Source of the DNA: Pycnococcus provasolii
Lineage: Eukaryota; Chlorophyta; Pseudoscourfieldiophyceae; Pseudoscourfieldiales; Pycnococcaceae
Reading direction: 5' to 3'
Length of the DNA stretch: 64,000 nt
Assembly: GCA_938743325.2 (NCBI GenBank)
Contig: OW568881.1
Location: 124,001 to 188,000 of the forward strand
Part shown: in pieces, positions 826 to 57,815 of the stretch
How the letters are laid out: the number at the start of each line of letters is the position of its first letter
How positions within the stretch are numbered: the stretch's first letter is position 1
The notes under the pieces: model-generated
What the model saw: the letters and a program-made list of their open reading frames with translations, nothing else
The model's database searches: none
Told to the model about the DNA's origin: nothing
Translations under genes and position numbers: made by a program

Positions 826-2880
826 ATGGGGTGTGCGGCGTCCGTGCCTGCGCCTGGTGGTGGTGGTGCAGACACTCCGCTGGGGTCCTGTGGTTTCCTC
901 AACACGCCGCTTCTTCCTCAGCGGCAGGTTTCCTCCACCTCTGGTAGTGCTGCTAACGGACATAGTAACTCGCTTGCCGCCGCCGGGGGCCCGGGGTTGA
1001 ATGCACAAAACCTCGACGCTCACGGAGCGCCTAAGGACGGAATGCACTCACACTCGCACCAGCTGAAAGGGGACCACTCTTACGCACCTCCAAGCGACGA
1101 CAGGTTCAAGACCTCCACGACGACAGGTTCCTCGGCCGCACAAACTTCTAGCTCAGAAGAGGATGTCAACGCGCGGCGCGTGCAGACGCGAAGAGGGTCG
1201 AGAACGGCGTCGGACATGTTCGACGGCGCGTCAGCCGCCGCGCTCGGCGCGCGCGAAAGGCGAGGGTCCTGGTCGACCGCGCCACACGAAGCGGTGGACC
1301 TGAGAGAAGCGTGCGTGAGGGCTCTCGCAAGCTTTCCCACAAAACTCATAGGAAGAGGGGACGCGCACGCCGTCGCACTCACGCTCAGCGACGCGGTGAC
1401 GAGCGCGGCGATGCAGTGCCCGCCGCTGCTTGCCGAAGCTCTTCTCAACTGCTCGCCAAAGGTGGCGGCCACAATAGGCGCCGTGCAGCAGGTGCGTGCT
1501 TACGAAATGTCCGTCGTGCAGCTCGCGCGTGTCACCTTTTCCGTCGCAAGAGCACTCCTCAGCCTGATTGCCAAGGGTGCAGACAAGCTGTACACGGACG
1601 CTGTGCTGCTTGGCAGGGTGATTGATCAGGCGAACAATCTGCGCACCGCGCTCACCGGCGCCGTGCGCTGCGTGGACGACTTCACCGCCTCGGGAACGGA
1701 CCTGCTGAAGCGTGTTCTTGCGGAGAACGAGCGCAGCGCCTTTGCGAAGACCGACCGACTGCTACGCGACCCACTCAAGCAGATTGCATTCTTGGTGGGG
1801 AAGGAAGAGGAGTACGTCGAGCCGAGCAACTATGCTGAGAACGTGATCACGATGGACGAACTTCAGCAGATGGGTGGCGTCACTCTTGACACGCTCAAGG
1901 AGCGCATACAAAGTGTTCATCACAGCAACAGCGCGCCGTCGAGGATCCTAGAGCTTTCCCCGAATACGTCTACGAGCACTCGCAGCTTGAACAGCCAGGA
2001 GATTACCGCAAGGTCACTGCGCGCGAATCTCCTCGTCGATCTCAATTCCCCCAACTCGCACGCCATTTCCATCACGAACCTTAGTGTCGACGAAAAGCTT
2101 CCGCACATCCAGGCTGCGATTCAGGCGCGCGAGAGGGCAGACAAGGCGCGGTCTGCCGCCGGCTTTGCCAAGCAGGCGCTGGAGACGGCAACGGAGGAGG
2201 CGCGCATTGCACGTGCGCAGTCCTCGCCGCCGTCTGCGGGCGACGACGACGAGATGGGAGGCGACAGCCCCACGACATCTTCGGCGGCGACGGCGGCGAC
2301 GGCGGCGACGGGCGCCATGGAAGCTGGCATGAGCGGACGTGGCACCATCCAAACGGACACCAGCGACTACGTTGGTGGGATGATGATACAACGCATGCAC
2401 GGCCACGGCGTGCTGTTCATCAGCGAGGCTGAGGACTGGTACTACGGCCATTTTGAGCACGGGCGTATGCAAGGCTTCGGCGTGCTGTACGAGGGTGGCG
2501 GTGGCACCTACGAGGGCGAGATTATGGACGACGACTACCACGGCGTCGGCGTGTACCGCTTCGCAAACGGGGAGCGCTACGAGGGCGAATTCGCTTCAAG
2601 CCTCTTTTGTGGGTACGGTTGCTACTACTGGCCTTCGGGTGAGCGGTTCGACGGCACGTTTCGCAACGACAAGCGCAACGGCTGGGGCGTTCTCATTGAT
2701 CAAAAAGGTAGGATTCACCGCCGTGGCTTATGGAGTGACGACATCTTCACCACCGGCATTGATGACGACAGCGACGCTTCGAGCCTGCTCACGAAGGAGG
2801 ATGCACAGATGCAGCGCGATGCTCACCCTGTTGTGTCAGTCGCGGGCACCACCGCTGCTGCTGCCAAACCACCTCCTTGA
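826..2880 (+). CDS. MORN-repeat protein with N-terminal acylation motif
   Basis: A 684-aa protein. I start it at the ATG at 826 because the frame upstream (to 658) has only a GTG, and because this ATG gives MGCAAS, a classic N-myristoylation plus palmitoylation signature (Gly2, Cys3). Residues 5-160 are low-complexity Gly/Ser/Ala/His. A helical, Ala/Leu-rich region (about 160-360) follows, then a charged coiled coil (about 430-470). The C-terminal part (about 525-640) holds four to five MORN repeats with the usual G.G.....G..Y.G.F pattern, for example YEGEFASS and FDGTFRND. MORN repeats often bind membranes or scaffold kinases; a membrane-tethered scaffold is my inference. No catalytic domain is visible. 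The NLR-like gene at 52.5-56.9 kb begins with the same MGCAAS. Confidence 0.8.
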   Translation: MGCAASVPAPGGGGADTPLGSCGFLNTPLLPQRQVSSTSGSAANGHSNSLAAAGGPGLNAQNLDAHGAPKDGMHSHSHQLKGDHSYAPPSDDRFKTSTTTGSSAAQTSSSEEDVNARRVQTRRGSRTASDMFDGASAAALGARERRGSWSTAPHEAVDLREACVRALASFPTKLIGRGDAHAVALTLSDAVTSAAMQCPPLLAEALLNCSPKVAATIGAVQQVRAYEMSVVQLARVTFSVARALLSLIAKGADKLYTDAVLLGRVIDQANNLRTALTGAVRCVDDFTASGTDLLKRVLAENERSAFAKTDRLLRDPLKQIAFLVGKEEEYVEPSNYAENVITMDELQQMGGVTLDTLKERIQSVHHSNSAPSRILELSPNTSTSTRSLNSQEITARSLRANLLVDLNSPNSHAISITNLSVDEKLPHIQAAIQARERADKARSAAGFAKQALETATEEARIARAQSSPPSAGDDDEMGGDSPTTSSAATAATAATGAMEAGMSGRGTIQTDTSDYVGGMMIQRMHGHGVLFISEAEDWYYGHFEHGRMQGFGVLYEGGGGTYEGEIMDDDYHGVGVYRFANGERYEGEFASSLFCGYGCYYWPSGERFDGTFRNDKRNGWGVLIDQKGRIHRRGLWSDDIFTTGIDDDSDASSLLTKEDAQMQRDAHPVVSVAGTTAAAAKPPP

Positions 2881-3004
2881 CACACTTTGTTGCGAAATAC
2901 CAAAAACTAATTCTAAAAATGAGAACAAAAAACTTTTGCTTGTTTGTTTTACCCTCACAACTTGAACAGATCCCCCGCACATTTCGGCGCAAATGTGTCA
3001 GTAT

Positions 3005-4645
3005 TTAGTCCCAAGCAATGTGGCGGTACATCTCCTCGCCCGCGTACTTGGCATCGGCGCCGAGCTCCTCCTCAATGCGAAGCAGCTGGTTGTACTTAGC
3101 GAGGCGCTCGCTACGGCACGGCGCACCCGTCTTGATCTGGCCAGTCGCAAGGCCGACGGCGAGGTCGGCAATGAAGCTGTCCTCCGTCTCTCCCGAGCGG
3201 TGGCTCGTCATGACGCCCCATCCCGCTTCCTTCGACATGCGCACAGCCTCGATCGCCTCCGAGATGGATCCGATCTGGTTCACCTTCAGCAGGAGCGCAT
3301 TGCACGTCTTACCCTCGATCGCCGACGCGACGCGCGTCGGGTTCGTGACGAGCAGGTCATCGCCAACAACCTGGCACACACCCTCGGCGGTGAGCGCCGC
3401 GGTGTTCTCAAAGTCATCCTGATCGTAGGGGTCCTCGATGGAGATGACGGGGTACTCTGAGCAGAAGCTCTTGTACATCTCCAGCATCTCCTCTCCAGTC
3501 TTCTTCTGCGATCCGTCGTTGTCCTTCGTCTTGAAGTCCAGGTCGTACATCTTGTCCTCGGTGTAGAACTCCGACGAGGCGACGTCCATGCCGATCTTCA
3601 CCTTGCCAGTGAATCCAGCCTTCTCGATCGCCTGGTTGACGAGGTCGAGTCCCTCCTTGTTGGACTCGATGTTGGGCGCGAAGCCACCCTCGTCACCAAC
3701 GTTGCACGCATCCTGTCCGTACTTCTCCTTGATGACTGACTTGAGGTTGTGGTACACCTCCGTGCCCATCTTCATCGCCTCCGTGAACGAGGTGGCTCCC
3801 GTGGGCAGGATCATGAACTCCTGCATGGCAAGCTTGTTTCCTGCGTGGCTTCCTCCGTTGATGATGTTGAAAGCAGGCACGGGCAGGATGAGCTTCGTGT
3901 TTCCCGCGAGCTCGGCGATGTACTTATACAGCGGGATGTCCTTCTCCGCGGCACCAGCCTTGCACACCGCCATGGAGACGGCGAGGATGGCGTTGGCTCC
4001 AAGCTTGCCCTTGTTCTCCGTTCCGTCGAGCTCCTTGTTCATGAGGTCGTCGATCGCCTTCTGCTGCGTGGGGTCCTTTCCGACGAGAGCGGGGGCGATG
4101 ATGTCGTTCAGGTTGGCAACCGCCTTGGAGCATCCCTTGCCCATCCACATTGACTTGTCTCCGTCACGGAGCTCCACCGCCTCGTAGATGCCCGTGGAGG
4201 CGCCGGAGGGCACAATGGCGCGGAACATGCCCTTGTACGTGTGGACGTCGCACTCGACGGTGGGGTTGCCACGGGAGTCGATCACCTGGCGTCCCACCAC
4301 CTTGGTGATACGCGCGGGCGTCGTCTTCTTCAGGTACTCCGCCTGTAAAAGCAAAAATTAAAAGGGGAAGGTGTTGTTGTTAGCTAACACCGTTGATCAC
4401 ACAACTACTAAAACAAACAAAAACCAACAAAACAAATAACAAAAACAAACAAAACAACAACCAAAACAAAACAACCAAATCTCTCACAGGAAGACCAAAC
4501 CAACCAAAACACACGAGCAAAGAAAAGACGCACGCACCATGAAAGCGGCAGGTTCTTCAGGCTTCGCCTTGCAGGTGGCGTTGATGACCTCCTCCACCTT
4601 GCGGGAGAGGTTGTGCGCGTCGATGTACTCCTGGATCGTCGCCAT
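3005..4645 (-). CDS. ENO: Enolase (2-phospho-D-glycerate hydro-lyase), two exons
   Basis: Enolase converts 2-phosphoglycerate to phosphoenolpyruvate in glycolysis. Exon 1 is 4645-4538 (36 codons) and exon 2 is 4342-3005. The intron 4343-4537 has GTGCGT at its 5' end and TTTTACAG at its 3' end and falls in phase 0. The joined product is 481 aa. The first exon adds [16 protein letters not shown]..., an N-terminal extension of the type found in plant cytosolic ENO3-like enolases. Visible motifs are the mobile loop [18 protein letters not shown] with the catalytic Glu, and the signature [10 protein letters not shown] with the catalytic Lys. The C-terminal half is strongly plant-like. There is no plastid transit peptide, so it is probably cytosolic. 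Confidence 0.97.
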
Positions 4646-26166: not shown

Positions 26167-29100
26167 TCAAGCGGAAGGTGCACCATCAGGTGCCGGAGGC
26201 TCTGTGCTGGCCGCATCGTCATCCGCAGCCGGCGGCTTGATTTCCCCATCGAGCTCTGCAAGCTTCTCCCGCATCTGGTAGCGTGCAAGGAAACCTCGCA
26301 CCGCTGCCTGCACGTACAACGCGGCGTGGAAGTGCGCCGCCGTATACTTGGGAAGAACATTCGCCTTAAAGCTCGGTAGCCTGTCCGCAATTCTGCCCCG
26401 AATCTTTTCCTCCTCGTCCTGCGGGAGCACCGTGCCCGCGATGCGACCCGCCAGCGCGTGGAGCGTCTCCAGGAAATGAATCTTGCCGTCGTGCTCCGGT
26501 ATGTCCACAGACATGATGATGTGCTGGATCTCCGCCTTGCCCTTACCCGCCAATCCCTTAACCCCCATCGGCTCCTCCAGATCCCTGATCAAATACTGCA
26601 GCTTAGATGCCGGCATGTAGTACGTCGCGTACGGGTCGAACTTCGCCCATAACGTGACGAACTCCGACAGCCTGTCCTTCGACACCGGGCTCTCGTCGTC
26701 GCTCGACGAGTTCTGGAAGTTGTCCAAAATAACGGCGATGACGAGGTTAAGCATCACGAACGCACAGAAGATCACGAAGATGCAGAAGTAGATGATCGGC
26801 AAAATCGTGTGGTACGGCACGCATCCGTCGTACAACTGATCCTCCGACAGCCCTCCAAGCTCCTTGTCACCCTTCGAGTACCACTTATCGTTGTCGCCGT
26901 CAGCCGTGAACATCGTGTTGTGGTTCGTAACGTTAAGGTCGATGATCGCCATGCAGTGACGCGTGATCATCGTGTCGTGCATGATACCGTTCCACGACTC
27001 GCCGGTGCTCATGCGGAACAGTACAATAATCGCGCTCTCGAACGTCCTGAAGTTTGCGTGACGAGAAAGGTTCTCGCCCAACTTCACCTTGCCGAACAGG
27101 TTCATGCCCATGATGCCGAAGATGAAAAAGAACAGCCCAAGAACGAGCGTGATGTTCACGAGCGCGGGCAGAGAGAAGAGCAGCGTCTGGAAAAGCGTGC
27201 GCAGACCCTTCGCCTTCGGGATGAGACGGAAGATGCGAGCGACACGAAGCACGCGGAGAAGCGAGATGATTGGCAGGCCCTTCTTGGCAAGCACGTCCAT
27301 CAAAATGCCAATGATACTGAAGATCACCACGACGAAATCAAAGTCGTTCCAGCTGTCCTTGAAGTACTCGTTCACGCCAAAGGCGTACAGCTTCAGTGCT
27401 GCCTCGCACGCGAACAAGCTCGTGAAGAGGCAGTTGGCAACGAAAAGGATGAGAATCCAGGTTTTGGACATGTCCACGTGATTCATGCTCATGAAGAGGA
27501 TATTCACCATGATCGCGCTCATGATGAACACGTCGAAGCCGTCGCTGACCACCAACTTGAACACCGCCGCACGGCCCTTGTCTTCGGGAGGCTGCGGGTA
27601 GCGGCTCGGCTTGGCACCTGAAATTAGTTTCTGTATAGCTACCCAGGTCTTCTGCTCCTCGGTCATGAACATGCTGTTGCCCTCCTGCTTCTCCTTCATC
27701 TCGTTGAACTTGTCGATCGTCACACCAACGAACAGGTTGATCACAAAGAAGCCTCCGACGACGATGAAGAGCACGAAGAACACGCACATCCACATGTTGT
27801 AGTCGCGCACCGGCTGGAGGTCGATCGCACGGGCGTCCACGCCATCGTACATGACATCGAGCCACATCTCGAGCGTGGCCATCTCGAACAGCGTCAGAAT
27901 GCTATTTCCGATGTTGTCGAAGTTCGATGCTTTGTTCATCCAGCCGTGGCTCATCGTGTAGTTAAATCCGCCCATAGTCGAGTAGTCGATGGTGCCTGGG
28001 AGGTAGCTGCCGCCGTTTCCACTGGCCATCCAGTCGCATGGGTACTTTCCGCACCACGTGATGACGTGCTCCTTCTTGTCGCACCAGTCCTTGGTGATTT
28101 CGAAGAGGTTGGCGCACTTATCATCCTGATGGCAGGTTGTGGGGTTCTTCGTGCAGTCGCACCAGTCCGAGGTGTCGCACGGACCTCCCCAGCCAGCACC
28201 GTACCAGTTATTGTCCTTGCACCACGCGAGGGTGGGCAAAACGCGATGCTGCGCGATCAGCTCGCCGGCGTCGTGGTTCTCGCAGTAGAAAAATTGGCCC
28301 TTGAGCAGGTTCACTCCCAATATGCCAAAGATCACGTAGAAGAGCACGCAGACGAGCATGACGTTGCCGATGCCGGGAATGGACTGGAACAGCGCATTCA
28401 CGACAATCTTCATGCCCTCGTTACGGCTCGCCATGCGGATAGGACGAAGCGCGCGGAACGTACGAAGCGGCCGCAGGAAGGTGAGATTCTTCGTCAGGCC
28501 TGACCAGTCGATGAAGCCAATAACCACGACGAGGAAGTCGAGGACGTTCCAGTTGTTGCGGATGTACGCCCCCTTGTGGAATGCGGCGCCGAGTGCAATC
28601 ACCTTCAAGGACATCTCGATGGTGAAGCAGACGACAAACACCTTGTCAATCAGCGACAGAGCGTCACGAAGGTCGCACTTGTCCTTCTTGTGCTGATAGA
28701 TGCACTCAATCTCAAACTGGGGCATGTCGATGGCAAGGTTAACGGAGCTCAGCACGATGAGCACGATGATGCTGTACTCGAAGTAGCGATGGGAAACAAT
28801 CTCGGCGCACTTCACACGGAACGGGTTCGTGGGGCTGAACAAGAACAGCGAGTTGCCATTCAGAACGGGCATCTTGCCCGGTGCCGGCCCAGCACCCATC
28901 GAATCGTCGTCGTCGCCGCCAGGCATGACCGACACCTTCGTGTTTGGCTTCTCTTCCTCGCCCGCCTCCTCGTCCCAAGTAGACTTGTCCTTGAGGTCTT
29001 TCTCTTCACCGTCACCCTGCGACAGCTCCACGACAGGGTCAACCACCTCATCTTCGTCGTCGTCGTCTCCGCCGCCGCCAAAGTTGTCCAGCAGAATGGC

Positions 29101-31275
29101 AAGGAAAAGATTCAAGATGATGTAGTTGCCCACGACAACGAGGAGCACGAAGTAAATCGCGTACCCTCCGTTGATGCGCATTCCATCGTACATCACCGTG
29201 TTCCAGTTCTCGCCGGTGAGGATCTGGAAGATGGTGATGAACGCCCAGAAAAAGGTGTCGAAGTTGTGCCGCGACACCTCGGACTCGCCGACAAACGCGA
29301 GGTACTCCTTGATATCGCTTCCCGTCGCACCGTACGGGTAGCTCAGGCAAAGCGCCTTGTCTTGAAATAGCGTGCCCGGCACTTCCACGAATGTTCCGTT
29401 CGTTTTCGCCGTGCAGTACGGATTGCCGATGTAGCAATCGTAGTGCTGCGGGCAGTTGAGGTACGGGTATCCTTTATTGCCCGCCTCGTCGTCTGGACAT
29501 CTTTGACTCGCGTCGGATACGTAGCTGCAGAAGGCGAACTCGTAGCCGAACAGCTGCATGCCGAGCAGGCTGAAGATGAAAATGAACAGCACTAGGATCA
29601 GCATTAAGTACGAGATCGACGCGATGGACTTGAATATCGTATTGATGATATTATTCAGCTGCTTCCACGATCGCGCGAGCTTGAAAACGCGCAGAAGACG
29701 GAATGAACGGAGCACGGACAGTCCGCCACCGCCACCACCAGAGCAAACGCCGCCGGCGACGTCCGTGCCAACCTCGACGAGAGACGAAATGACGACGAGG
29801 CCATCGAAGACGTTCATGTTGTCCTTGCAGTACTCGCGTAGACCCAGTCCGAGGATCTTGACCACCATCTCGAAGAAGAAGTAGATGGTCAGGATGTAGT
29901 TGATGATGCAGAACGCGTACTCGAGCTTCTCCGGCATGAGATGGTATTCGCACATCATGACGACCGTGTTGAGGATGATCAGCGCCATGGTGAGGTGCTC
30001 GAACCACGGCGCGAGGGCAACCTTGTAGAACATGAGCAGGAACTGGTTCTCCGGCGGGGGCACGAGCGCCGTGTCCGGGATGCCGTCCCCGTCCGTGTCC
30101 ACGAGGTCGCCCGGCCCGGGCGGCGGCTCGTTCGACTCCTCCTCCTCGTCGTCGTCCTTGCCCGTCACGAAGTACATGTAGAGAACCGCGAGCGCGAGGT
30201 TCACGGCGAAGAACGACCCGAAGATGATCATGACGACGAAGTACCACGACACGTACGGCGAAACGGCGTCCTGCACCTGGTACATGACGTCTGTCCAGCC
30301 CTCGAGGGAGATGGCCTGGAAAATGGTCAGGAACGCGTACAGGATGTTGTCGAACGACGTGATGTCAAAGTTGGGGTTCTCGAAGCGCGTGCAGTAGCTC
30401 TGAATCGACGTGCCGTCGACGTCGATCTCGCCGCACGGCCGGCCGCCGCCCATCGGCGGGAGCTGCGGCGGAACCTTGGTGATGAACTCGCGGTAGTCCT
30501 TCGACAGCGGGCCGCTGCACAGGTCGCCCGTCTCGTCATCCGGAACCTCGAACAGCACGCGGTCCAGCATAGACGAATTCGTCGGGTCGATGTTGTAGTT
30601 CTTCTGGATGCAGATGTTGCTGTCTGGGTATGTCTCGTCGCAGACGAACGGCACTCCGCAGCGGTTTCGCATCGTGCCGGCGAACACCTGCACGCCTATG
30701 ATTCCGAATATGAAAAGGATGAAGCAGCACAGGTTGAGCACATCGAAGAGCATGGGCAGCGCGCTGAGCAGCGTCTCGACGATGATTCGCATGCCCTCGA
30801 CACCTGTGATTGTTCGCAGCGGACGCAGCACGCGCACCGTTCGGATGGCGGAGTAGTTGCCTAGTCCTGTCTGCGCGAGCCAACTGAGGATGACGACGAG
30901 GAAGTCCATGACGTTCCACCCGTCTCGCAGATACGAGCCTTCCGACACCCACATGCCCATGCCAATAACCTTGAGCACGAGCTCTATTGTAAAGAGGACG
31001 GTGAAGACGATCTCGCTCACCTCGATAACCTGTCCCGTCTTCGACTTTTCGAAGTTGGGCGCGTTCGAGCTCATGGCCAGGAAGATACAGTTGAGGCCGA
31101 TGAGGGTGAGGATGGTGCGGTCGAAGATGGTGCTCTTGATGATTTTGATAACCATTTTGCGGAAGGGATTCTTCTTCGTGAAGAGGTACAAACTCCGGTC
31201 CGGCAGAGTTGCGGCCAGCTCCTCGTACGTCAAGTCTCCCTTGGAGCCGCGCTTCATGGACTTGGTGCGATCCAT
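26167..31275 (-). CDS. Four-domain voltage-gated cation channel, Ca-type filter
   Basis: A 1702-aa pore-forming subunit with four six-helix domains (about 40-370, 410-735, 820-1195, 1240-1525). All have S4 helices with regularly spaced Arg (for example RTVRVLRPLRT, RPLRTFRALRPIR). The selectivity-filter residues are Glu325 (SLEGW), Glu689 (TGENW), Glu1136 (TLEMW) and Glu1426 (TGESW), so the ring is EEEE, as in Cav channels. The III-IV linker contains SMFMTEEQKTW (about 1201-1211), like the sodium-channel inactivation gate. After domain IV come an EF-hand-like segment (1537-1570) and one IQ motif (YVQAAVRGFLARYQ, 1654-1667). A single exon encodes it all. Algal homologues act in flagellar and excitable responses; the role here is inference. 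Confidence 0.95.
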   Translation of the reverse strand: MDRTKSMKRGSKGDLTYEELAATLPDRSLYLFTKKNPFRKMVIKIIKSTIFDRTILTLIGLNCIFLAMSSNAPNFEKSKTGQVIEVSEIVFTVLFTIELVLKVIGMGMWVSEGSYLRDGWNVMDFLVVILSWLAQTGLGNYSAIRTVRVLRPLRTITGVEGMRIIVETLLSALPMLFDVLNLCCFILFIFGIIGVQVFAGTMRNRCGVPFVCDETYPDSNICIQKNYNIDPTNSSMLDRVLFEVPDDETGDLCSGPLSKDYREFITKVPPQLPPMGGGRPCGEIDVDGTSIQSYCTRFENPNFDITSFDNILYAFLTIFQAISLEGWTDVMYQVQDAVSPYVSWYFVVMIIFGSFFAVNLALAVLYMYFVTGKDDDEEEESNEPPPGPGDLVDTDGDGIPDTALVPPPENQFLLMFYKVALAPWFEHLTMALIILNTVVMMCEYHLMPEKLEYAFCIINYILTIYFFFEMVVKILGLGLREYCKDNMNVFDGLVVISSLVEVGTDVAGGVCSGGGGGGLSVLRSFRLLRVFKLARSWKQLNNIINTIFKSIASISYLMLILVLFIFIFSLLGMQLFGYEFAFCSYVSDASQRCPDDEAGNKGYPYLNCPQHYDCYIGNPYCTAKTNGTFVEVPGTLFQDKALCLSYPYGATGSDIKEYLAFVGESEVSRHNFDTFFWAFITIFQILTGENWNTVMYDGMRINGGYAIYFVLLVVVGNYIILNLFLAILLDNFGGGGDDDDEDEVVDPVVELSQGDGEEKDLKDKSTWDEEAGEEEKPNTKVSVMPGGDDDDSMGAGPAPGKMPVLNGNSLFLFSPTNPFRVKCAEIVSHRYFEYSIIVLIVLSSVNLAIDMPQFEIECIYQHKKDKCDLRDALSLIDKVFVVCFTIEMSLKVIALGAAFHKGAYIRNNWNVLDFLVVVIGFIDWSGLTKNLTFLRPLRTFRALRPIRMASRNEGMKIVVNALFQSIPGIGNVMLVCVLFYVIFGILGVNLLKGQFFYCENHDAGELIAQHRVLPTLAWCKDNNWYGAGWGGPCDTSDWCDCTKNPTTCHQDDKCANLFEITKDWCDKKEHVITWCGKYPCDWMASGNGGSYLPGTIDYSTMGGFNYTMSHGWMNKASNFDNIGNSILTLFEMATLEMWLDVMYDGVDARAIDLQPVRDYNMWMCVFFVLFIVVGGFFVINLFVGVTIDKFNEMKEKQEGNSMFMTEEQKTWVAIQKLISGAKPSRYPQPPEDKGRAAVFKLVVSDGFDVFIMSAIMVNILFMSMNHVDMSKTWILILFVANCLFTSLFACEAALKLYAFGVNEYFKDSWNDFDFVVVIFSIIGILMDVLAKKGLPIISLLRVLRVARIFRLIPKAKGLRTLFQTLLFSLPALVNITLVLGLFFFIFGIMGMNLFGKVKLGENLSRHANFRTFESAIIVLFRMSTGESWNGIMHDTMITRHCMAIIDLNVTNHNTMFTADGDNDKWYSKGDKELGGLSEDQLYDGCVPYHTILPIIYFCIFVIFCAFVMLNLVIAVILDNFQNSSSDDESPVSKDRLSEFVTLWAKFDPYATYYMPASKLQYLIRDLEEPMGVKGLAGKGKAEIQHIIMSVDIPEHDGKIHFLETLHALAGRIAGTVLPQDEEEKIRGRIADRLPSFKANVLPKYTAAHFHAALYVQAAVRGFLARYQMREKLAELDGEIKPPAADDDAASTEPPAPDGAPSA

Positions 31276-50398: not shown

Positions 50399-50839
50399 TT
50401 GCAGCTCCTCCAACCGGCATCACCCGAAGACGATTTCTTCACGGCGGCTGGAGACAGCAACGCAACCGCAGGCGAATTAAAATACGCGAAGAAGGTGGCA
50501 AAGCTCACGCTGAACTCGTGGCATCCCGAAGAACTCAGGCACTGGTTCGAACACGACGTCAAGCTCAGCCTCACGCTCGAGGAAAGCACGCAAAAGCTGT
50601 TTCCCACATCCAACAGCGCGCGCGAAGTTCGCAATAAGCTCGTTGAAGCCGTCGAAGATCAAGGGGGCGCCGTGATGCACGGACATGGCGTGAGCTCGAT
50701 GAAAAGGCTGCCAAGCGAAGAGCACGACGGCGAGCTGCTCTGGCACCTGTACGCGGATCCAACTGTCGACTCAATGTCCAAAGAAGCAGACTCCAATTCG
50801 GAATTGGTAGTGCTGGGCTGTCGATCGGTAAGTCAATGA
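50399..50839 (+). pseudogene. Unknown coding-like fragment
   Basis: An open frame of about 146 codons with protein-like composition (KKVAKLTLNSWHPEELRHWF, then LWHLYADPTVDSMSKEAD) but no ATG at its start, directly downstream of an in-frame TAG. It may be a truncated gene carried into this island. The 303-aa frame on the opposite strand overlaps it, and at most one is likely to be real in the overlap. Confidence 0.35.
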
Positions 50840-51482
50840 TTCCAGTCGGCCTCCAAGGCATCGTCCAATAGAATGCCATATAGTCAATGAAATTCCAGTC
50901 GACACTCATCCAATCGACTAATAGGACTTCTGGGATTCCCTTCGCGACCTCGAGGAGCTCGTGCGTCCCATACACAGACTGTTTGCTGATGGACGTGAAA
51001 TGATATAATTCTCGTACCATCTTCTGAAAAGACGGCTGACGACCTGCTGAGCATAAAGTTATTTCGATCGCTAAAGTTTCTTTAGGAAGTGCAGCCGGAG
51101 CGGCGGCGGCGGCGGATAAGGGGGAGAAGAAGGAGGGGGAGATGGCGTCTTCTTCTTCTTCGTGACAGATTGATACATGTGTATGTAGTAAGTAGTGTAT
51201 TGTATCACAAGTGTTTTCAGCCCCTCGGCCCCTTAGCCGAGCGAAGGTCACGGGGTGCAGTCCTAGCTCAATCAACATGCCATCTTCGATGTCGAGGTCA
51301 ACATGGCTGCTGTTGTCGTGCACCGTATTCACCACTTCAGGTACGTCTTGGTAGGCCGCGTGGGCGCTACCAAACTCTTGCATAAGCTCTTCGTCAATTT
51401 GCTGGTCGTTTGCGTTGATGGAGTTGAAGATGGTTACGAGGTTTGCGCTGTACAAGTCGCGCGTATATTCGTTATGTGACAT
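50571..51482 (-). pseudogene. Chimeric copy of the MSHN-type gene
   Basis: The first 78 codons (from the ATG at 51482, MSHNEYTRDLYSANLVTIFN) are nearly identical to the start of the gene at 57048-57815. The match ends exactly at the boundary of the 611-bp direct repeat (51248). Downstream codons, down to 50571, share nothing with the parent and run antisense to the coding-like fragment at 50399-50839. It is most simply a 5' gene copy, promoter included, that now reads into unrelated DNA. Confidence 0.55.
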
Positions 51483-52475: not shown

Positions 52476-55400
52476 CTATGCACCATTTGCGCCTATTGTC
52501 GTCGCGTCCCAGACGCGAACGGTCTTGTCCAAGCTCGCGGAGACGATGCGCGTCCCATCCGCGGAATACGATGCGGATCTCACCGCAGAAGAATGGCCTT
52601 CCAGCACAGATATGCACGCGCCGGTCGTCGCGTCCCAGATGCGAACGGTATTGTCGAAGCTCGCGGAGACGATGCGCGTACCATCCGCGGAATACGATGC
52701 GGATGACACCGGACCAGAATGGCCTTCCAGCACAGATACACACGCGCCGGTCGTCGCGTCCCAGATGCGAACGCTCGTGTCCCTGCTCGCGGAGACGATG
52801 CGCGTCCCATCCGCGGAATACAATGCGGATGACACCGGACCAGAATGGCCTTCCAGCACAGATACACACGCGCCAGTCGTCGCGTCCCACACGCGTACGG
52901 TCTTGTCCTCGCTCGCGGAGACGATGCGCGTCCCATCCGCGGAATACGATGCGGATGTCACCATACTGGAATGGCCTTTCAGCACAGATACACACGCGCC
53001 GGTCGTCGCGTCCCAGATGCGAACGCTCGTGTCCTCGCTCGCGGAGACGATGCGCGTCCCATCCGCGGAATACGATGCGGATGTCACCCAAATCGAATGG
53101 CCTTCCAGCACAGATACACACGCGCCGGTCGTCGCGTCCCACATGCGAACGGTCTTGTCAAAGCTCGCGGAGACGATGCGCGTCCCATCCGCGGAATACG
53201 ATGCGGATGACACATCATAAGAATGGCCCCTCAGCACTGATATACACGCGCCGGTCGTCGCGTCCCAAACGCGAACGGTACTGTCATCGCTCGCGGAGAC
53301 AATGCGCGTCCCATCCGCGGAATACGAGGCGGAAGTCACATCACGAGAATGGCCTTCCAGCACAGATATGCACGCGCCGGTCGTCGCGTCCCAGATGCGA
53401 ACGGTCTTGTCCCAGCTCGCTGAGACGATGCGCGTACCATCCGCGGAATACGAGGCGGAAGTCACATAAAAAGAATGGCCTTCCAGCACAGATATGCACG
53501 CGCCGGTCGTCGCGTCCCACACGCGAACGGTGTTGTCATCGCTCGCGGAGACGATGCACGTCCCATCCGCGGAATACGATGCGGATCTCACCGCAGAAGA
53601 ATGGCCTTCCAGCACAGATAAACACGCGCCGGTCGTCGCGTCCCAGACGCGAACGGTCTTGTCATCGCTCGCGGAGACGATGCGCGTACCATCCGCGGAA
53701 TACGATGCGGATCTCACATAATCAGAATGGCCTTCCAACACGGATATGCACGCGCCGGTCGTCGCGTCCCACATGCGAACGGTCTTGTCCCTGCTCGCGG
53801 AGACGATGCGCGTACCATCTGCGGAATACGATGCGGAAAGCACCGCAGAAGAATGGCCTTCCAGCACAGATAAACACGCGCCGGTCGTCGCGTCCCAGAT
53901 GCGAATGGTATCGTCACCGCTCGCGGAGACGATGCGCGTCCCATCCGCGGAATACGATGCGGATCTCACCGCAGAAGAATGGCCTTCCAGCACAGATATG
54001 CACGCGCCAGTCGTCGCGTCCCACACGCGAACGGTACTGTCATCGCTCGCGGAGACAATGCGCGTCCCATCCGCGGAATACGAGGCGGAAGTCACATCAC
54101 GAGAATGGCCTTCCAGCACAGATATGCACGCGCCGGTCGTCGCGTCCCAGACGCGAACGGTCTTGTCATCGCTCGCGGAGACGATGCGCGTACCATCCGC
54201 GGAATACGATGCGGAAGTCACATAATCAGTATGGCCTCTCATGTTGTTGAGAATCGTCGCATCAATATCCACACGAGCAGGCATGCAAAGGCTCGGCGTA
54301 CAATATGTCAATACCGACTGTCCTGGACTCTGATACCATACACTCGTACACGGCACATTCGCTGCAATCAATCCAGCCTGCGAATACGTCCCAACTCCCC
54401 ACCGAAGTACGCGAACAAAAGCATGCAACGATTCCACGGTCGCCACCAACCCAGTAGCATCATTCGCCAACTTTTTCTTCGCTTCCAAAAGCGCCTTTTC
54501 GAGGCGCAGCAATTCCACCACGAGCACGCCTCTTCGACCTGCATCCATCTGACGTTTCAACCACATACCCGCAAACTCTGTCGCACACCAACGTGACGCC
54601 TTATATCCCTCAGGAATCATCGACGCCTCCTTTGCACGCTCAACCATGAACGCAGCAGACCACTCCTTCATGACATCTATCGCCAACGTCTCATCACCAC
54701 CTTCGTGCAACATCTTCTCAACCGCATCAGTCAAGTGCACGTGTGCATGTCGCAAGGAATACGCCACAGCCGGCCCCTTCTCGTCGTCGCAACGTTTCAA
54801 AACGTCCAGGCACGATCGCGCAAGCTCACGATGTCCACGAAATACGTCTGCTGCGTGCTCACCTGATCGCTTCGTGTCTCCCAAAAACTCACGCAACGAC
54901 AAGTGCAACGTCTGCAGCAGGTGATCACGCTCCTCGAACAGCAGTCCCCAACCAGGTAGGCGCTCGCACGCCTCTCGCAAATGCAATCTATCAACATGCG
55001 CCGACGAGAGAGGTTCACGCGAAGCGAGCACAATGTCAATCAGCCGACGAACTTCCTCGTCATCCTTCGCTGCGCGATCAAACCAAAGCTTATACGTGGC
55101 ATCAATATCCACAGGTGGCTCCAAGCTTGTGCCGTATCGCTTGACAAACTCGCGAGCAACAATCTGGTACACCTTTATGCTCTGCATGTTGCGCATCGCC
55201 TCTTCCCAGGGTCCTGGAAGGCGACTCTCCTCCTTTTCCACTTCCACCGGGGCCTGCCCAAGAACATGTGCAGGCTCCATCACGCACATGCCACCCTCCC
55301 AATCGTGCTCCAGCACGCGTCGACGAGGATAGTCACCATCCGCATCTGGGCGCGTCGTCACAAGCACAGAAACGCTCGAGCGCGCATCACGAGCTAAGGT

Positions 55401-56870
55401 CTGCAGCAAACGCACCGCGGCATTTGACGTGTGCCGGTCATCGTCCGCCTCGTCGAGCGCATCCAGCAAAATCACCGCATGCTTTTGAATTTTAGCAAGC
55501 TTTTTCAGCGGTTCCACCAAAAGCGCGTTCACCGCGACATCCGGGTCGACGAGCGCCTTTGCCGCGATGTCTTCCTCCAGATCAATCAGGCATTCTCGAA
55601 CAACGTCAAATCGTTGACCAAGTTGGAAGCCAAGCGACCTCACCATCTCAAGCACGTCCTGGCGCCTGACGTCCGCACGTTTGAAGAAGTGTGACGCGTG
55701 GACCAAGTCGAGGGCTGCCGAAGCCACGCTCGACTTACCCTCTCCTGGTCCGCCAACAATGCATGCAAGACGTCCACCGGTCAACGTCACATGTGCACGC
55801 AGCTCGTCCAGCTGGTACTCGTTGCTCTGTCCACGTTCTCGCAACGCCTGCAAATCCGACTCGTAGCTCATCGGACGGAGCATGAATCGCAGCTTGAGCT
55901 CCTCCGTGAAGTGCTTCATGCTCGCAAACCCAAACTTGCCCGTGATTTCGCCGTGAATCATCTCCTTGTCTGCGGGCGAAAAGCACAGCGCCGTCTCCGC
56001 GTCGATGTTGCGAATGTGCTGCGACACGTCCTTTTCCGAGAAGCCGTGCGTGACGAGCTGCAGCTTCTGCGGCGGTGTCGACCCGATCTCGTACAGGCAC
56101 CACAACCTCGTCAACGGAATGACGCGATCTTTATCCAGCACGACGAGTGTTGCGCGAGACGTCGCTATCGTACTAGCAAGCGTGCGGCCGTCGTCGAGCT
56201 CTCTCATGGCTGAGAATACTCCGCCCGTGTCGTCCTGGTTGATGGCGAAAATGTCAAGCCACACGTACGTATCGTTTTGAGCAGCGCCTGCGAGTGCCCC
56301 TTTCACGCTCTCCACGAGGTCGACAAAAGTGCTGTTCCACGCGTGCGAAATGAAGTACGTCGGCGCGCCAACAGGAAGATTCTCGGCTTGCGCGTAGCTC
56401 ATGTGCTTTTTGCGTGCCAGCGAACGCACGAAGCACTCAACGATATCCGTCGTGTACATCTGCTCGAACGGGATGTCGCGATACTGCACCGGAATAGGCT
56501 TGCCACTTTTTGTTTTTTCAGCCGCGCGTCGCTTATCGCGGTGCATCTCTATGTTATCAGACGTCACGATCAAGTTTGTATCTTTCCCACCACCATCCTC
56601 CTCAGCCATGAACTCCTTGACGACGTCCCAGCTTTGCGTCGTTCCGGCGTGCGCCTTAACAAACTGTGCAAGCCATGCGAGCGACACCGCGCGGCCGACG
56701 GGCGACTCGGACGCATGTTCGGCCTGAGTCTTCCCATCATCGACGTCTTGCCTAGGTGGCTTGACTGGCAGCACCGTCGTCGGCAAGAGTTTTTCCTTGC
56801 GCGCCGTTGATGTTGACGTCGACGCCGCGCCGTGTACTTGCTGCACCGCCGACGACGCCGCACACCCCAT
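52476..56870 (-). CDS. NLR-like protein: TIR-like, NACHT/STAND ATPase, 14 WD40 repeats
   Basis: A 1464-aa single-exon protein. The ATG at 56870 gives MGCAASS, an N-myristoyl/palmitoyl signature. A TIR-like domain spans about 165-300: YFISHAW (172-178), VWLDIFAINQDD (203-214) and RLWCLYEIG (255-263). WCLxE resembles the plant TIR motif whose Glu is catalytic in NADase activity (Glu261 here). The ATPase part (about 350-640) has a P-loop GGPGEGKSS (373-381; Lys379) and Walker B ILLDALDEAD (467-476), with VLVTTRPDAD as a sensor-like strand. A helical region leads to 14 WD40 repeats of 42 residues (about 876-1464), enough for two propellers. The architecture is that of STAND immune receptors; the function is inference. 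The last repeat is cut short (TTIGANGA). Confidence 0.92.
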   Translation of the reverse strand: MGCAASSAVQQVHGAASTSTSTARKEKLLPTTVLPVKPPRQDVDDGKTQAEHASESPVGRAVSLAWLAQFVKAHAGTTQSWDVVKEFMAEEDGGGKDTNLIVTSDNIEMHRDKRRAAEKTKSGKPIPVQYRDIPFEQMYTTDIVECFVRSLARKKHMSYAQAENLPVGAPTYFISHAWNSTFVDLVESVKGALAGAAQNDTYVWLDIFAINQDDTGGVFSAMRELDDGRTLASTIATSRATLVVLDKDRVIPLTRLWCLYEIGSTPPQKLQLVTHGFSEKDVSQHIRNIDAETALCFSPADKEMIHGEITGKFGFASMKHFTEELKLRFMLRPMSYESDLQALRERGQSNEYQLDELRAHVTLTGGRLACIVGGPGEGKSSVASAALDLVHASHFFKRADVRRQDVLEMVRSLGFQLGQRFDVVRECLIDLEEDIAAKALVDPDVAVNALLVEPLKKLAKIQKHAVILLDALDEADDDRHTSNAAVRLLQTLARDARSSVSVLVTTRPDADGDYPRRRVLEHDWEGGMCVMEPAHVLGQAPVEVEKEESRLPGPWEEAMRNMQSIKVYQIVAREFVKRYGTSLEPPVDIDATYKLWFDRAAKDDEEVRRLIDIVLASREPLSSAHVDRLHLREACERLPGWGLLFEERDHLLQTLHLSLREFLGDTKRSGEHAADVFRGHRELARSCLDVLKRCDDEKGPAVAYSLRHAHVHLTDAVEKMLHEGGDETLAIDVMKEWSAAFMVERAKEASMIPEGYKASRWCATEFAGMWLKRQMDAGRRGVLVVELLRLEKALLEAKKKLANDATGLVATVESLHAFVRVLRWGVGTYSQAGLIAANVPCTSVWYQSPGQSVLTYCTPSLCMPARVDIDATILNNMRGHTDYVTSASYSADGTRIVSASDDKTVRVWDATTGACISVLEGHSRDVTSASYSADGTRIVSASDDSTVRVWDATTGACISVLEGHSSAVRSASYSADGTRIVSASGDDTIRIWDATTGACLSVLEGHSSAVLSASYSADGTRIVSASRDKTVRMWDATTGACISVLEGHSDYVRSASYSADGTRIVSASDDKTVRVWDATTGACLSVLEGHSSAVRSASYSADGTCIVSASDDNTVRVWDATTGACISVLEGHSFYVTSASYSADGTRIVSASWDKTVRIWDATTGACISVLEGHSRDVTSASYSADGTRIVSASDDSTVRVWDATTGACISVLRGHSYDVSSASYSADGTRIVSASFDKTVRMWDATTGACVSVLEGHSIWVTSASYSADGTRIVSASEDTSVRIWDATTGACVSVLKGHSSMVTSASYSADGTRIVSASEDKTVRVWDATTGACVSVLEGHSGPVSSALYSADGTRIVSASRDTSVRIWDATTGACVSVLEGHSGPVSSASYSADGTRIVSASFDNTVRIWDATTGACISVLEGHSSAVRSASYSADGTRIVSASLDKTVRVWDATTIGANGA
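52479..54245 (-). repeat. 14 near-identical 126-bp WD40-encoding repeats
   Basis: Each unit reads RIVSAS-x-D-x-(T/S)-VR-x-WDATTGAC-x-SVL-x-GHS-xx-V-x-SASYSADGT. The differences between units cluster at the residue after SAS (D, G, R, W, F, E, L), the residue between R and W (V, I, M), the residue after GAC (I, L, V), and the two residues after GHS (RD, SA, DY, FY, YD, IW, SM, GP). At the DNA level long stretches are identical between units. Confidence 0.95.
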
Positions 56871-57047: not shown

Positions 57048-57815
57048 TTAAACGGGAAGGCTTAGCGAAGTGACGCAGCGACCGCCGAGCGTAATCTCGA
57101 GGAGGGCAAAGTCAATCTCATACGTGGAACGCGAGAGGCTGAAGTCGTACGTGAAGCACGCCTCGACTGAGGCTAGGCTACACGTGAAGCCTATCGCGGG
57201 GCACGTGAGCACGTGGTGCAGATACTCGTGTGGCAGACACTTGCCGCGAGTGCTTGGTAGGGGCACGTCGCCGATGTGCGTGCGCACGCAATTGTCGAGC
57301 GCCTCTTGGCCCATGTGGCTAATCTGTACGCCCCGTGGGAGTTGCGTTGCGTGCTTGAATACGTGTCCAAGCATGCGCATCGCGCGGCGGGGCTTGAGCC
57401 ACGCCTGCATCTTGTCGAAGCGTTCGCTCGCCTCCGCATGCGGCGGTGGCGGTGGCAGTAGCGGTAGGCTGACAAGAGCCGCCGCCGGCGACTGCATAGT
57501 TGCAGGTGCTGTTTCCACCAACGTTCGCGGGGTGCGAGGAGGTGCAGGTGTAAATGGCGGCTCAACTATCACGTACGTCGTCACGGGATGCAGTCCTAGC
57601 TCAATCAACATGCCGTCTTCGATGTCGAGGTCAACCGGGCTGCTGTTGTCGTGCACCGTATTCACCACTTCAGGTACGTCTTGGTAGGCCGCGTGGGCGC
57701 TACCAAACTCTTGCATAAGCTCTTCGTCAATTTGCTGGTCGTTTGCGTTGATGGAGTTGAAGATGGTTACGAGGTTTGCGCTGTACAAGTCGTATGTATA
57801 GTCGTTATGTGACAT
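57048..57815 (-). CDS. Unknown 255-aa protein (MSHN type), intact copy
   Basis: From the ATG at 57815 (MSHNDYTYDLYSANLVTIFN) to TAA at 57048. I recognise no family. Residues 1-78 are acidic and polar (NDQQIDEELMQEFGSAHAAY, EDGMLIELGLHPV). Residues about 85-125 are Pro-rich. The last 120 residues look folded and contain several Cys and His (GKCLPHEYLHHVLTCPAIGF, TCSLASVEACF). It lies directly upstream of the NLR-like gene on the same strand with a 177-bp gap. Its 5' third plus promoter is duplicated on the far side of that gene, so it was part of the event that built the island. Confidence 0.6.
   Translation of the reverse strand: MSHNDYTYDLYSANLVTIFNSINANDQQIDEELMQEFGSAHAAYQDVPEVVNTVHDNSSPVDLDIEDGMLIELGLHPVTTYVIVEPPFTPAPPRTPRTLVETAPATMQSPAAALVSLPLLPPPPPHAEASERFDKMQAWLKPRRAMRMLGHVFKHATQLPRGVQISHMGQEALDNCVRTHIGDVPLPSTRGKCLPHEYLHHVLTCPAIGFTCSLASVEACFTYDFSLSRSTYEIDFALLEITLGGRCVTSLSLPV

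Follow-up and report, generated by a model that had tools for sequence, protein, structure and literature searches.

How do single-celled phytoplankton recognise viruses, bacteria and foreign strains? To our knowledge this is poorly known, and a gene on contig OW568881.1 of the green alga Pycnococcus provasolii (strain CCAP190/2; 32.33-Mb genome in 46 contigs) raises the question directly. We analysed a 64,000-nucleotide stretch of this contig (the window), in which one complete minus-strand gene encodes a protein of 1464 residues. This protein is probably a STAND (NLR-like) receptor from a rapidly diversifying family that resembles the fungal HNWD (HET-NACHT-WD40) proteins and serves non-self recognition. 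The features of the gene, in window coordinates, are the following.

52476..56870 (-): complete single-frame gene, 1464 residues, ATG to stop, with an acyl-anchor-like N-terminus, TIR-like head, NACHT/NPHP3-type STAND NTPase, winged-helix-like region and 14 WD40 repeats
56850..56870 (-): MGCAASS start, which we take to be N-myristoylation/palmitoylation-like
55836..56573 (-): head, residues 100-345, covered by an AlphaFold2 model
56046..56369 (-): TIR-like core, residues 168-275, with strand A YFIS (SHAW), strand B VWLD, strand C TLVVL and helix C with RLWCLYE
56088..56090 (-): codon of Glu261, candidate catalytic Glu from alignments and genome copies
55350..55775 (-): STAND NTPase (NPHP3_N/NACHT), residues 366-507, from Pfam
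55731..55754 (-): Walker A GGPGEGKS, residues 373-380, read from the sequence
55446..55478 (-): Walker B AVILLDALDEA, residues 465-475, read from the sequence
54729..55058 (-): winged-helix-like region (HTH_TANC1), residues 605-714, from Pfam, below cut-off
52497..54554 (-): segment near-identical to the contig-32 paralogue L040, coding nucleotides 2317-4374
52497..54236 (-): WD40 sensor, residues 879-1458, 14 blades of 42 residues, with hypervariable blade positions 16, 18, 39, 40 and 42

A first-pass annotation had described a 1464-codon frame with an MGCAASS start, a SHAW...WCLYE head, a Walker P-loop and Walker B, and 14 WD40 repeats, and all of these can be read directly in one intact open reading frame. 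Its numbering of Glu261 is also correct (SHAW, 175-178; RLWCLYE, 255-261). The frame is not a chance one, because the head is fully covered at 89-100% identity in 14 places of the genome (window included) and has a mean ratio of non-synonymous to synonymous substitution (dN/dS) of 0.15. The NTPase scores above the Pfam cut-off both as NPHP3_N (8.7e-16) and as NACHT (4.3e-6; 27.1 bits against 26.7), while the HTH_TANC1 match (4.2e-5; 23.8 bits) falls under its cut-off of 27. All 13 spacings between the 14 WD40 units are exactly 42 residues. The protein combines a Walker A/B NTPase of NACHT or related type, a C-terminal repeat sensor and an N-terminal signalling-type domain, as STAND/NLR proteins do, and the proposed NLR architecture in a green-lineage alga is thereby borne out. 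A PADLOC run returned one match to the WD40 region and one weak match.

The annotation was right about the TIR-like fold, the WxxxE context of Glu261 and the NLR architecture, and it missed the features that we now rank highest: the multigene family, the hypervariable blade positions and the turnover between strains. A search of the genome with the head found 54 places. Besides the 14 that span the whole head, one covers head residues 2-214 at 87% identity and one has 58% identity. Leaving the 58% place aside, 11 of the 15 close copies lie in open frames of 1431-1593 residues, all with WD40 matches in the same frames, and the other four lie in shorter frames (524, 551, 677 and 913). Thirteen further places show 36-40% identity (E 5e-16 or better), and the others are either fragmentary or weak, eight of these having an internal stop. 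Mean dN/dS in the NACHT region is 0.30; as for the head, this was computed on 14 of 16 heads, excluding L023 (partial) and L024 (divergent).

We then investigated the blades of this family, numbering the 42-residue unit from SASYSADG. The analysis covers the 87 of 108 blade motifs that have the next motif exactly 42 residues on or are last with 42 residues left; six of the eight blades of L039 were dropped by this rule, and the truncated plus-strand gene of L041 contributes none. Among the 42 codons, the proportion of non-synonymous differences (pN) is highest at codons 40, 39, 16, 42 and 18 (0.44-0.66), and the following two reach 0.31 and 0.29. Pooled over the five codons, pN is 0.59 (bootstrap 0.56-0.61) against a synonymous proportion (pS) of 0.33 in the same codons, and the framework pN is 0.14. 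The resulting pN/pS, from a counting method that ignores recombination, is 1.77 (1.58-2.04) within the five codons and 0.34 in the framework. The 87 blades carry 71 distinct five-residue combinations on a framework that is 91.6% identical within genes and 91.2% between genes. In 11 Pycnococcus and Pseudoscourfieldia proteins with at least six clean units (window included), the same five positions come out on top in six, four of them in four and three in one. Two unrelated, non-algal WD40 proteins of lower internal conservation (0.66-0.72 against 0.80-0.96) also show three and four of the five hot spots. Diversifying selection very probably acts on the sensor.

The sensors also differ between strains. 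A tree of head and NACHT sequences gives the orthologue pairs L044/P0003, L046/P0002 and L045/P0005 (support 100 each) and L042/P0004 (95). We rejected P0008 as the orthologue of L043 since the tree sets it nearer L014, and four firm pairs are therefore counted rather than five; the L043/P0008 figures are in line with those of the other pairs (head 99.3%, hypervariable identity 0.28 against 0.20). In the four pairs the heads are 98.9-99.6% identical, the WD40 parts 81-85% and the blade framework 0.90-0.92, while identity at the hypervariable positions (0.11, 0.23, 0.20 and 0.34) is close to the expectation for random blades (0.14, 0.22, 0.20 and 0.28). In bins of 60 residues, orthologue identity falls gradually along the chain, from 0.95-1.00 in the head through 0.85-1.00 in the NTPase to mostly 0.72-0.92 in the array; the paralogue average there is 0.79-0.85. 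Only three five-residue combinations are common to our strain (90 in 110 blades) and the others (129 in 133 blades). Positional identity at the five codons, as far as sequence comparison goes, is thus lost between strain orthologues while the head is nearly unchanged. Assembly quality bears on such comparisons. The CCAP190/2 assembly comprises 44 chromosomes plus organelles of 24.3 and 80.2 kb and rests on PacBio HiFi reads (444-fold coverage, consensus quality 58.2; PMC11130579), so repeat scrambling by assembly is unlikely in it. Repeats of this kind cannot be reconstructed from Illumina-based assemblies (PMC12222747), which bears on the sensors of the other strains; their contigs of 0.3-1.3 Mb suggest long reads.

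Comparison of the window gene with L040 on contig 32 points to exchange between loci. The two genes mismatch throughout coding nucleotides 1-2316 (93.5% identity over the first 1035), the last upstream mismatch being at 2316. Beyond it there are no mismatches over 468 bases, then 25 in 1741 bases of array, and the last codons differ. Blade signatures are identical in 12 of 14 blades, and a block of changes in blade 12 gives the signature SSAR, which is known from other blades. The other 27 pairs among eight full genes have head identities of 0.858-0.945 and WD40 identities, approximate values from MAFFT, of 0.861-0.893. Because a near-identical array sits on diverged heads, we read this as a recent exchange of the whole sensor between chromosomes, with an apparent breakpoint about 100 codons before the first blade. 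The equal framework identity within and between genes is as expected for exchange across loci.

A similar design is known from Podospora anserina. In its HNWD proteins (HET-E, HET-D and HET-R), strong positive selection acts on codons 7, 9, 25 and 27, which sit in pairs around a conserved residue (8 or 26), and a homology model places them on the interaction surface of the propeller (PMC1805685). Algal codons 40, 42, 16 and 18 match these four in the same register, because V41 lies between 40 and 42 and D17 between 16 and 18, the two pairs being 18 codons apart as in Podospora; by our mapping with the same offset, algal position 39 falls on position 11 of a seven-position list (PMC12222747). 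The naive chance that a top five contains the four Podospora codons is 4.5e-5. Since any binding propeller can be expected to vary on its top face, the register match supports function, not descent. Both families have a TIR-related head, a NACHT domain, internally conserved WD40 repeats (framework 0.94 in the window protein) and repeat exchange between loci (PMC1805685, PMC12222747), and the algal family likewise shows diversification at the presumed top-face codons by the counting method, recombination ignored. The reactive HNWD alleles have been modelled as double seven-bladed propellers (PMC1805685, PMC12222747), and the 14 near-identical algal blades probably form two seven-bladed rings. 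Unlike HNWD, the algal protein has a head that Pfam cannot call as HET, an NTPase best matched as NPHP3_N and an MGC acyl-like or EF-hand N-terminus; its host is a unicellular green alga, and all 14 blades in the window protein are canonical. Convergence is as possible as common descent.

What does the head do? At E<=1 no Pfam family matches window residues 100-345, and a single-sequence PDB search with this head found no relevant relative; the name 'TIR-like' therefore needed profile and structure tests. Aligned by hhalign, 67 heads matched 13 canonical TIRs of the same genome with a probability of 92.5% (P 4.8e-7), the head WCLYE standing opposite TIR CLKEL; six control comparisons (reversed profiles, NACHT, winged helix) gave 0.1-0.8%. 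In a PDB profile search the TIR protein 3h16 (E 0.0034) was the sole match under E 0.1. The AlphaFold2 model of the head (mean predicted local distance difference test score, pLDDT, 87.1; predicted template modelling score, pTM, 0.83) shows the TIR order of strand A, helix A, strand B, helix B, strand C, helix C and strand D. In a structure search (VIA) with this model, 47 of the 50 matches listed contain a TIR, the best being AbTir, which we take to be an NADase. Thirty-five have TIR in their title, and 12 (SARM1, RPP1, ThsB, SfSTING and SPARTA entries) we presume to contain one; the remaining three are two nucleoside 2'-deoxyribosyltransferases and one unnamed conserved protein. Region 160-310, which the first-pass annotation had proposed as TIR-like, thus did not fold as something else, and the head fold is almost certainly TIR-like. 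We call it TIR-like rather than a Pfam TIR because no score over the TIR/TIR_2 cut-offs was reached (no family in the window head; TIR at E 0.2 in one of 13 heads), and the 18 TIR_2 places of the genome do not include the window gene. Nor was the cut-off of Pfam HET (PF06985) reached among the 13 heads (one at E 0.088); the Tetrabaena relative P0145 matches HET at E 0.01 with 16.6 bits against a cut-off of 22.5, and a HET scan of our own genome gave no matches, but no control matched either.

Sequence and profile alignment place Glu261 in a WxxxE motif like that around the catalytic Glu of TIRs, and it is a candidate catalytic residue. W257 and Glu261 do not vary in alignments A1 (55 rows) and A2 (13 rows); a WxxxE with its catalytic Glu is a mark of NADase TIRs. 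Glu261 is present in all 16 genome copies read, and in alignment A3 (40 rows, many fragments) it reaches at least 90% but is not invariant. The head may accordingly be imagined to consume nicotinamide adenine dinucleotide (NAD+), which we propose only tentatively. It could instead be a non-enzymatic TIR/HET-like assembly domain that oligomerises with other TIR or HET-like proteins, which is compatible with a receptor and concerns its output only. A conserved Glu alone does not predict activity (PMC7075850), and a table of PMC12881547 includes HET/TIR proteins without biochemical data or structure; against this stand the invariance of both residues in the 55-row alignment and the rank of AbTir as top structural match. 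Assembly without catalysis is a credible option, short of a probable one.

As a receptor, the protein would work as follows. The five hypervariable residues would line the top face of the propellers and make contact with a ligand that differs from strain to strain or changes with time. Binding would let the NTPase oligomerise and bring the heads together, which would signal by NAD+ consumption through Glu261 or by assembly. The output may be defence or cell death, at the membrane (through the MGC anchor) or in a Ca2+-dependent manner (in the EF-hand paralogues). The steps after ligand binding are modelled on plant and fungal NLRs; cell death is a slightly favoured output. Recombination of blades and arrays among paralogues, with selection on contact residues, would renew the repertoire. 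Taken furthest, the alga may maintain a pool of sensor arrays that recombine: entire 14-blade arrays, and single blades too, would pass from one conserved TIR-NACHT head to another across chromosomes. Selection would act on the ligand contacts with codon precision, and the outcome would be a strain-specific and rapidly renewed repertoire that parallels fungal HNWD and comes in membrane-anchored and Ca2+-gated versions. This is an attractive possibility that we do not yet consider probable.

A role in non-self recognition is likely, with pathogen sensing more likely than allorecognition. The same machinery could be turned on self and recognise other strains when cells touch or gametes fuse, in the way that HET-E and HET-D recognise HET-C; fungal allorecognition is the nearest parallel in design and evolution, and the sensors of orthologues are as dissimilar between strains as random blades are. 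However, the vast majority of the fungal genes in these families are uninvolved in allorecognition (PMC12881547), and we consider this target unlikely.

The blade positions might also vary through relaxed constraint or local hypermutation, with gene conversion homogenising the rest and no role in recognition. Conversion does operate, as the shared array and the equal homogeneity of blades within and between genes indicate, and recombination can inflate selection tests. However, relaxed constraint predicts that pN does not exceed pS, contrary to the ratio seen in the five codons. Regional hypermutation is at odds with codon 39, whose first two positions take any of the four bases while the third is T in 76 of 87 blades, A in 11 and never C, and with the V41 codon between the hottest codons, which is GTG in 85 of 87. 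Variation without a role is improbable. Adenine-specific mutagenesis like that of diversity-generating retroelements was rejected, as the hypervariable first and second codon positions lack an adenine-only pattern. Finally, a scaffold or ciliary/cytoskeletal protein, as NCBI product names and the Pfam name NPHP3_N would have it, is very improbable, since such names (NPHP3_N, EF-hand, 'dynein assembly factor') apparently reflect common domains rather than tests and a structural scaffold is not expected to hold its head at 99% while its sensor changes to random expectation between strains.

We also examined relatives and other loci. The public close relatives come mostly from Pycnococcus provasolii and Pseudoscourfieldia marina and are named 'EF-hand domain-containing' and once 'dynein assembly factor'; the head is found in Chlamydomonas incerta and metagenomes as well. 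Nine of ten family frames read from the genome begin with MGC, and the tenth, L045, opens with an EF-hand-like sequence, its orthologue P0005 carrying PF13405. Relative P0044, an EF-hand protein, has ankyrin repeats in place of WD40, and by eye its head is nearly that of the divergent 58% relative L024 (contig 7: 314380-315096; 2206-residue frame). Seven dispersed elements (L025-L031, on contigs 4, 31, 15, 2, 5, 3 and 13), the first being 98.7-99.3% identical to the other six over 2.3-2.5 kb, each hold an 854-base 5' piece of this receptor gene (about 92% identical) in a disrupted frame; this seems to be a repeat that captured a receptor head. At L041 (contig 23: 430800-438700) two genes stand tail to tail, with inverted arms of 2.04 kb that are 99.66% identical, and one of the two genes (677 residues) has no WD40 array; coordinates and scores suggest two similar opposed pairs, on contigs 23 and 3. 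The canonical TIR_2 matches, 16 of the 18 over cut-off, have varied architectures (L047-L052; contigs 44, 42, 15 and 30), and four apparently lie in frames that also hold WD40, judging by position and equal frame lengths. By eye, L047 unites an MGCAAS stretch, ankyrin-like repeats and a TIR in a single frame, and in L048 a canonical TIR is joined to a head-like domain; contig 44 has a 2099-residue frame with both domains.

Within the window, the genes flanking the receptor (50571-51482 and 57048-57815) begin with 79 residues that are near-identical between them (96%) and for which no Pfam family scores above its cut-off. A local mobile cassette made of these duplicated genes was rejected: elsewhere in the genome this N-terminus recurs only as one partial copy, on contig 16, and one weak match, and no link was shown. 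A 1702-residue frame at 26167-31275, with a GPHH domain and four ion-transport stretches, encodes a CaV-like calcium channel of four domains in a single ORF.

Among known systems, plant TIR-NB-LRR proteins (RPP1, ROQ1, RUN1) have NB-ARC and LRR where the algal protein has a NACHT/NPHP3-type NTPase and WD40, and the algal head differs from theirs in its conserved SHxW / WLD..xNQ signature. The first-pass annotation had suggested a search of green algae, and the same kind of architecture is present in Chlamydomonas relatives. NACHT-WD40 proteins are described in Chlamydomonas (PMC4773052), NB-WD40 proteins, some with TIR, in Chondrus (PMC7145615) and an APAF1_C/WD40 gene in Ulva (PMC8891106); these share the algal STAND-WD40 architecture, and the available parts of these papers report no hypervariable blades or sensor turnover. 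The candidate immune receptors of brown algae diversified by exon shuffling (PMC11378527) are ROCO GTPases, not NACHT-WD40 proteins like that of the window. A keyword search of titles and the starts of abstracts, with preprints outside its scope, found no report of hypervariable WD40 NLRs in a green alga.

Prasinophytes are green algae that diverged close to the root of the green lineage. If our reading is true, the same repeat codons diversify here as in fungal allorecognition, on a TIR-like head as in that of plant resistance proteins, which would link the NLR biology of fungi, plants and bacteria. The family gives directly testable predictions about the binding residues, the role of Glu261 and the movement of arrays.

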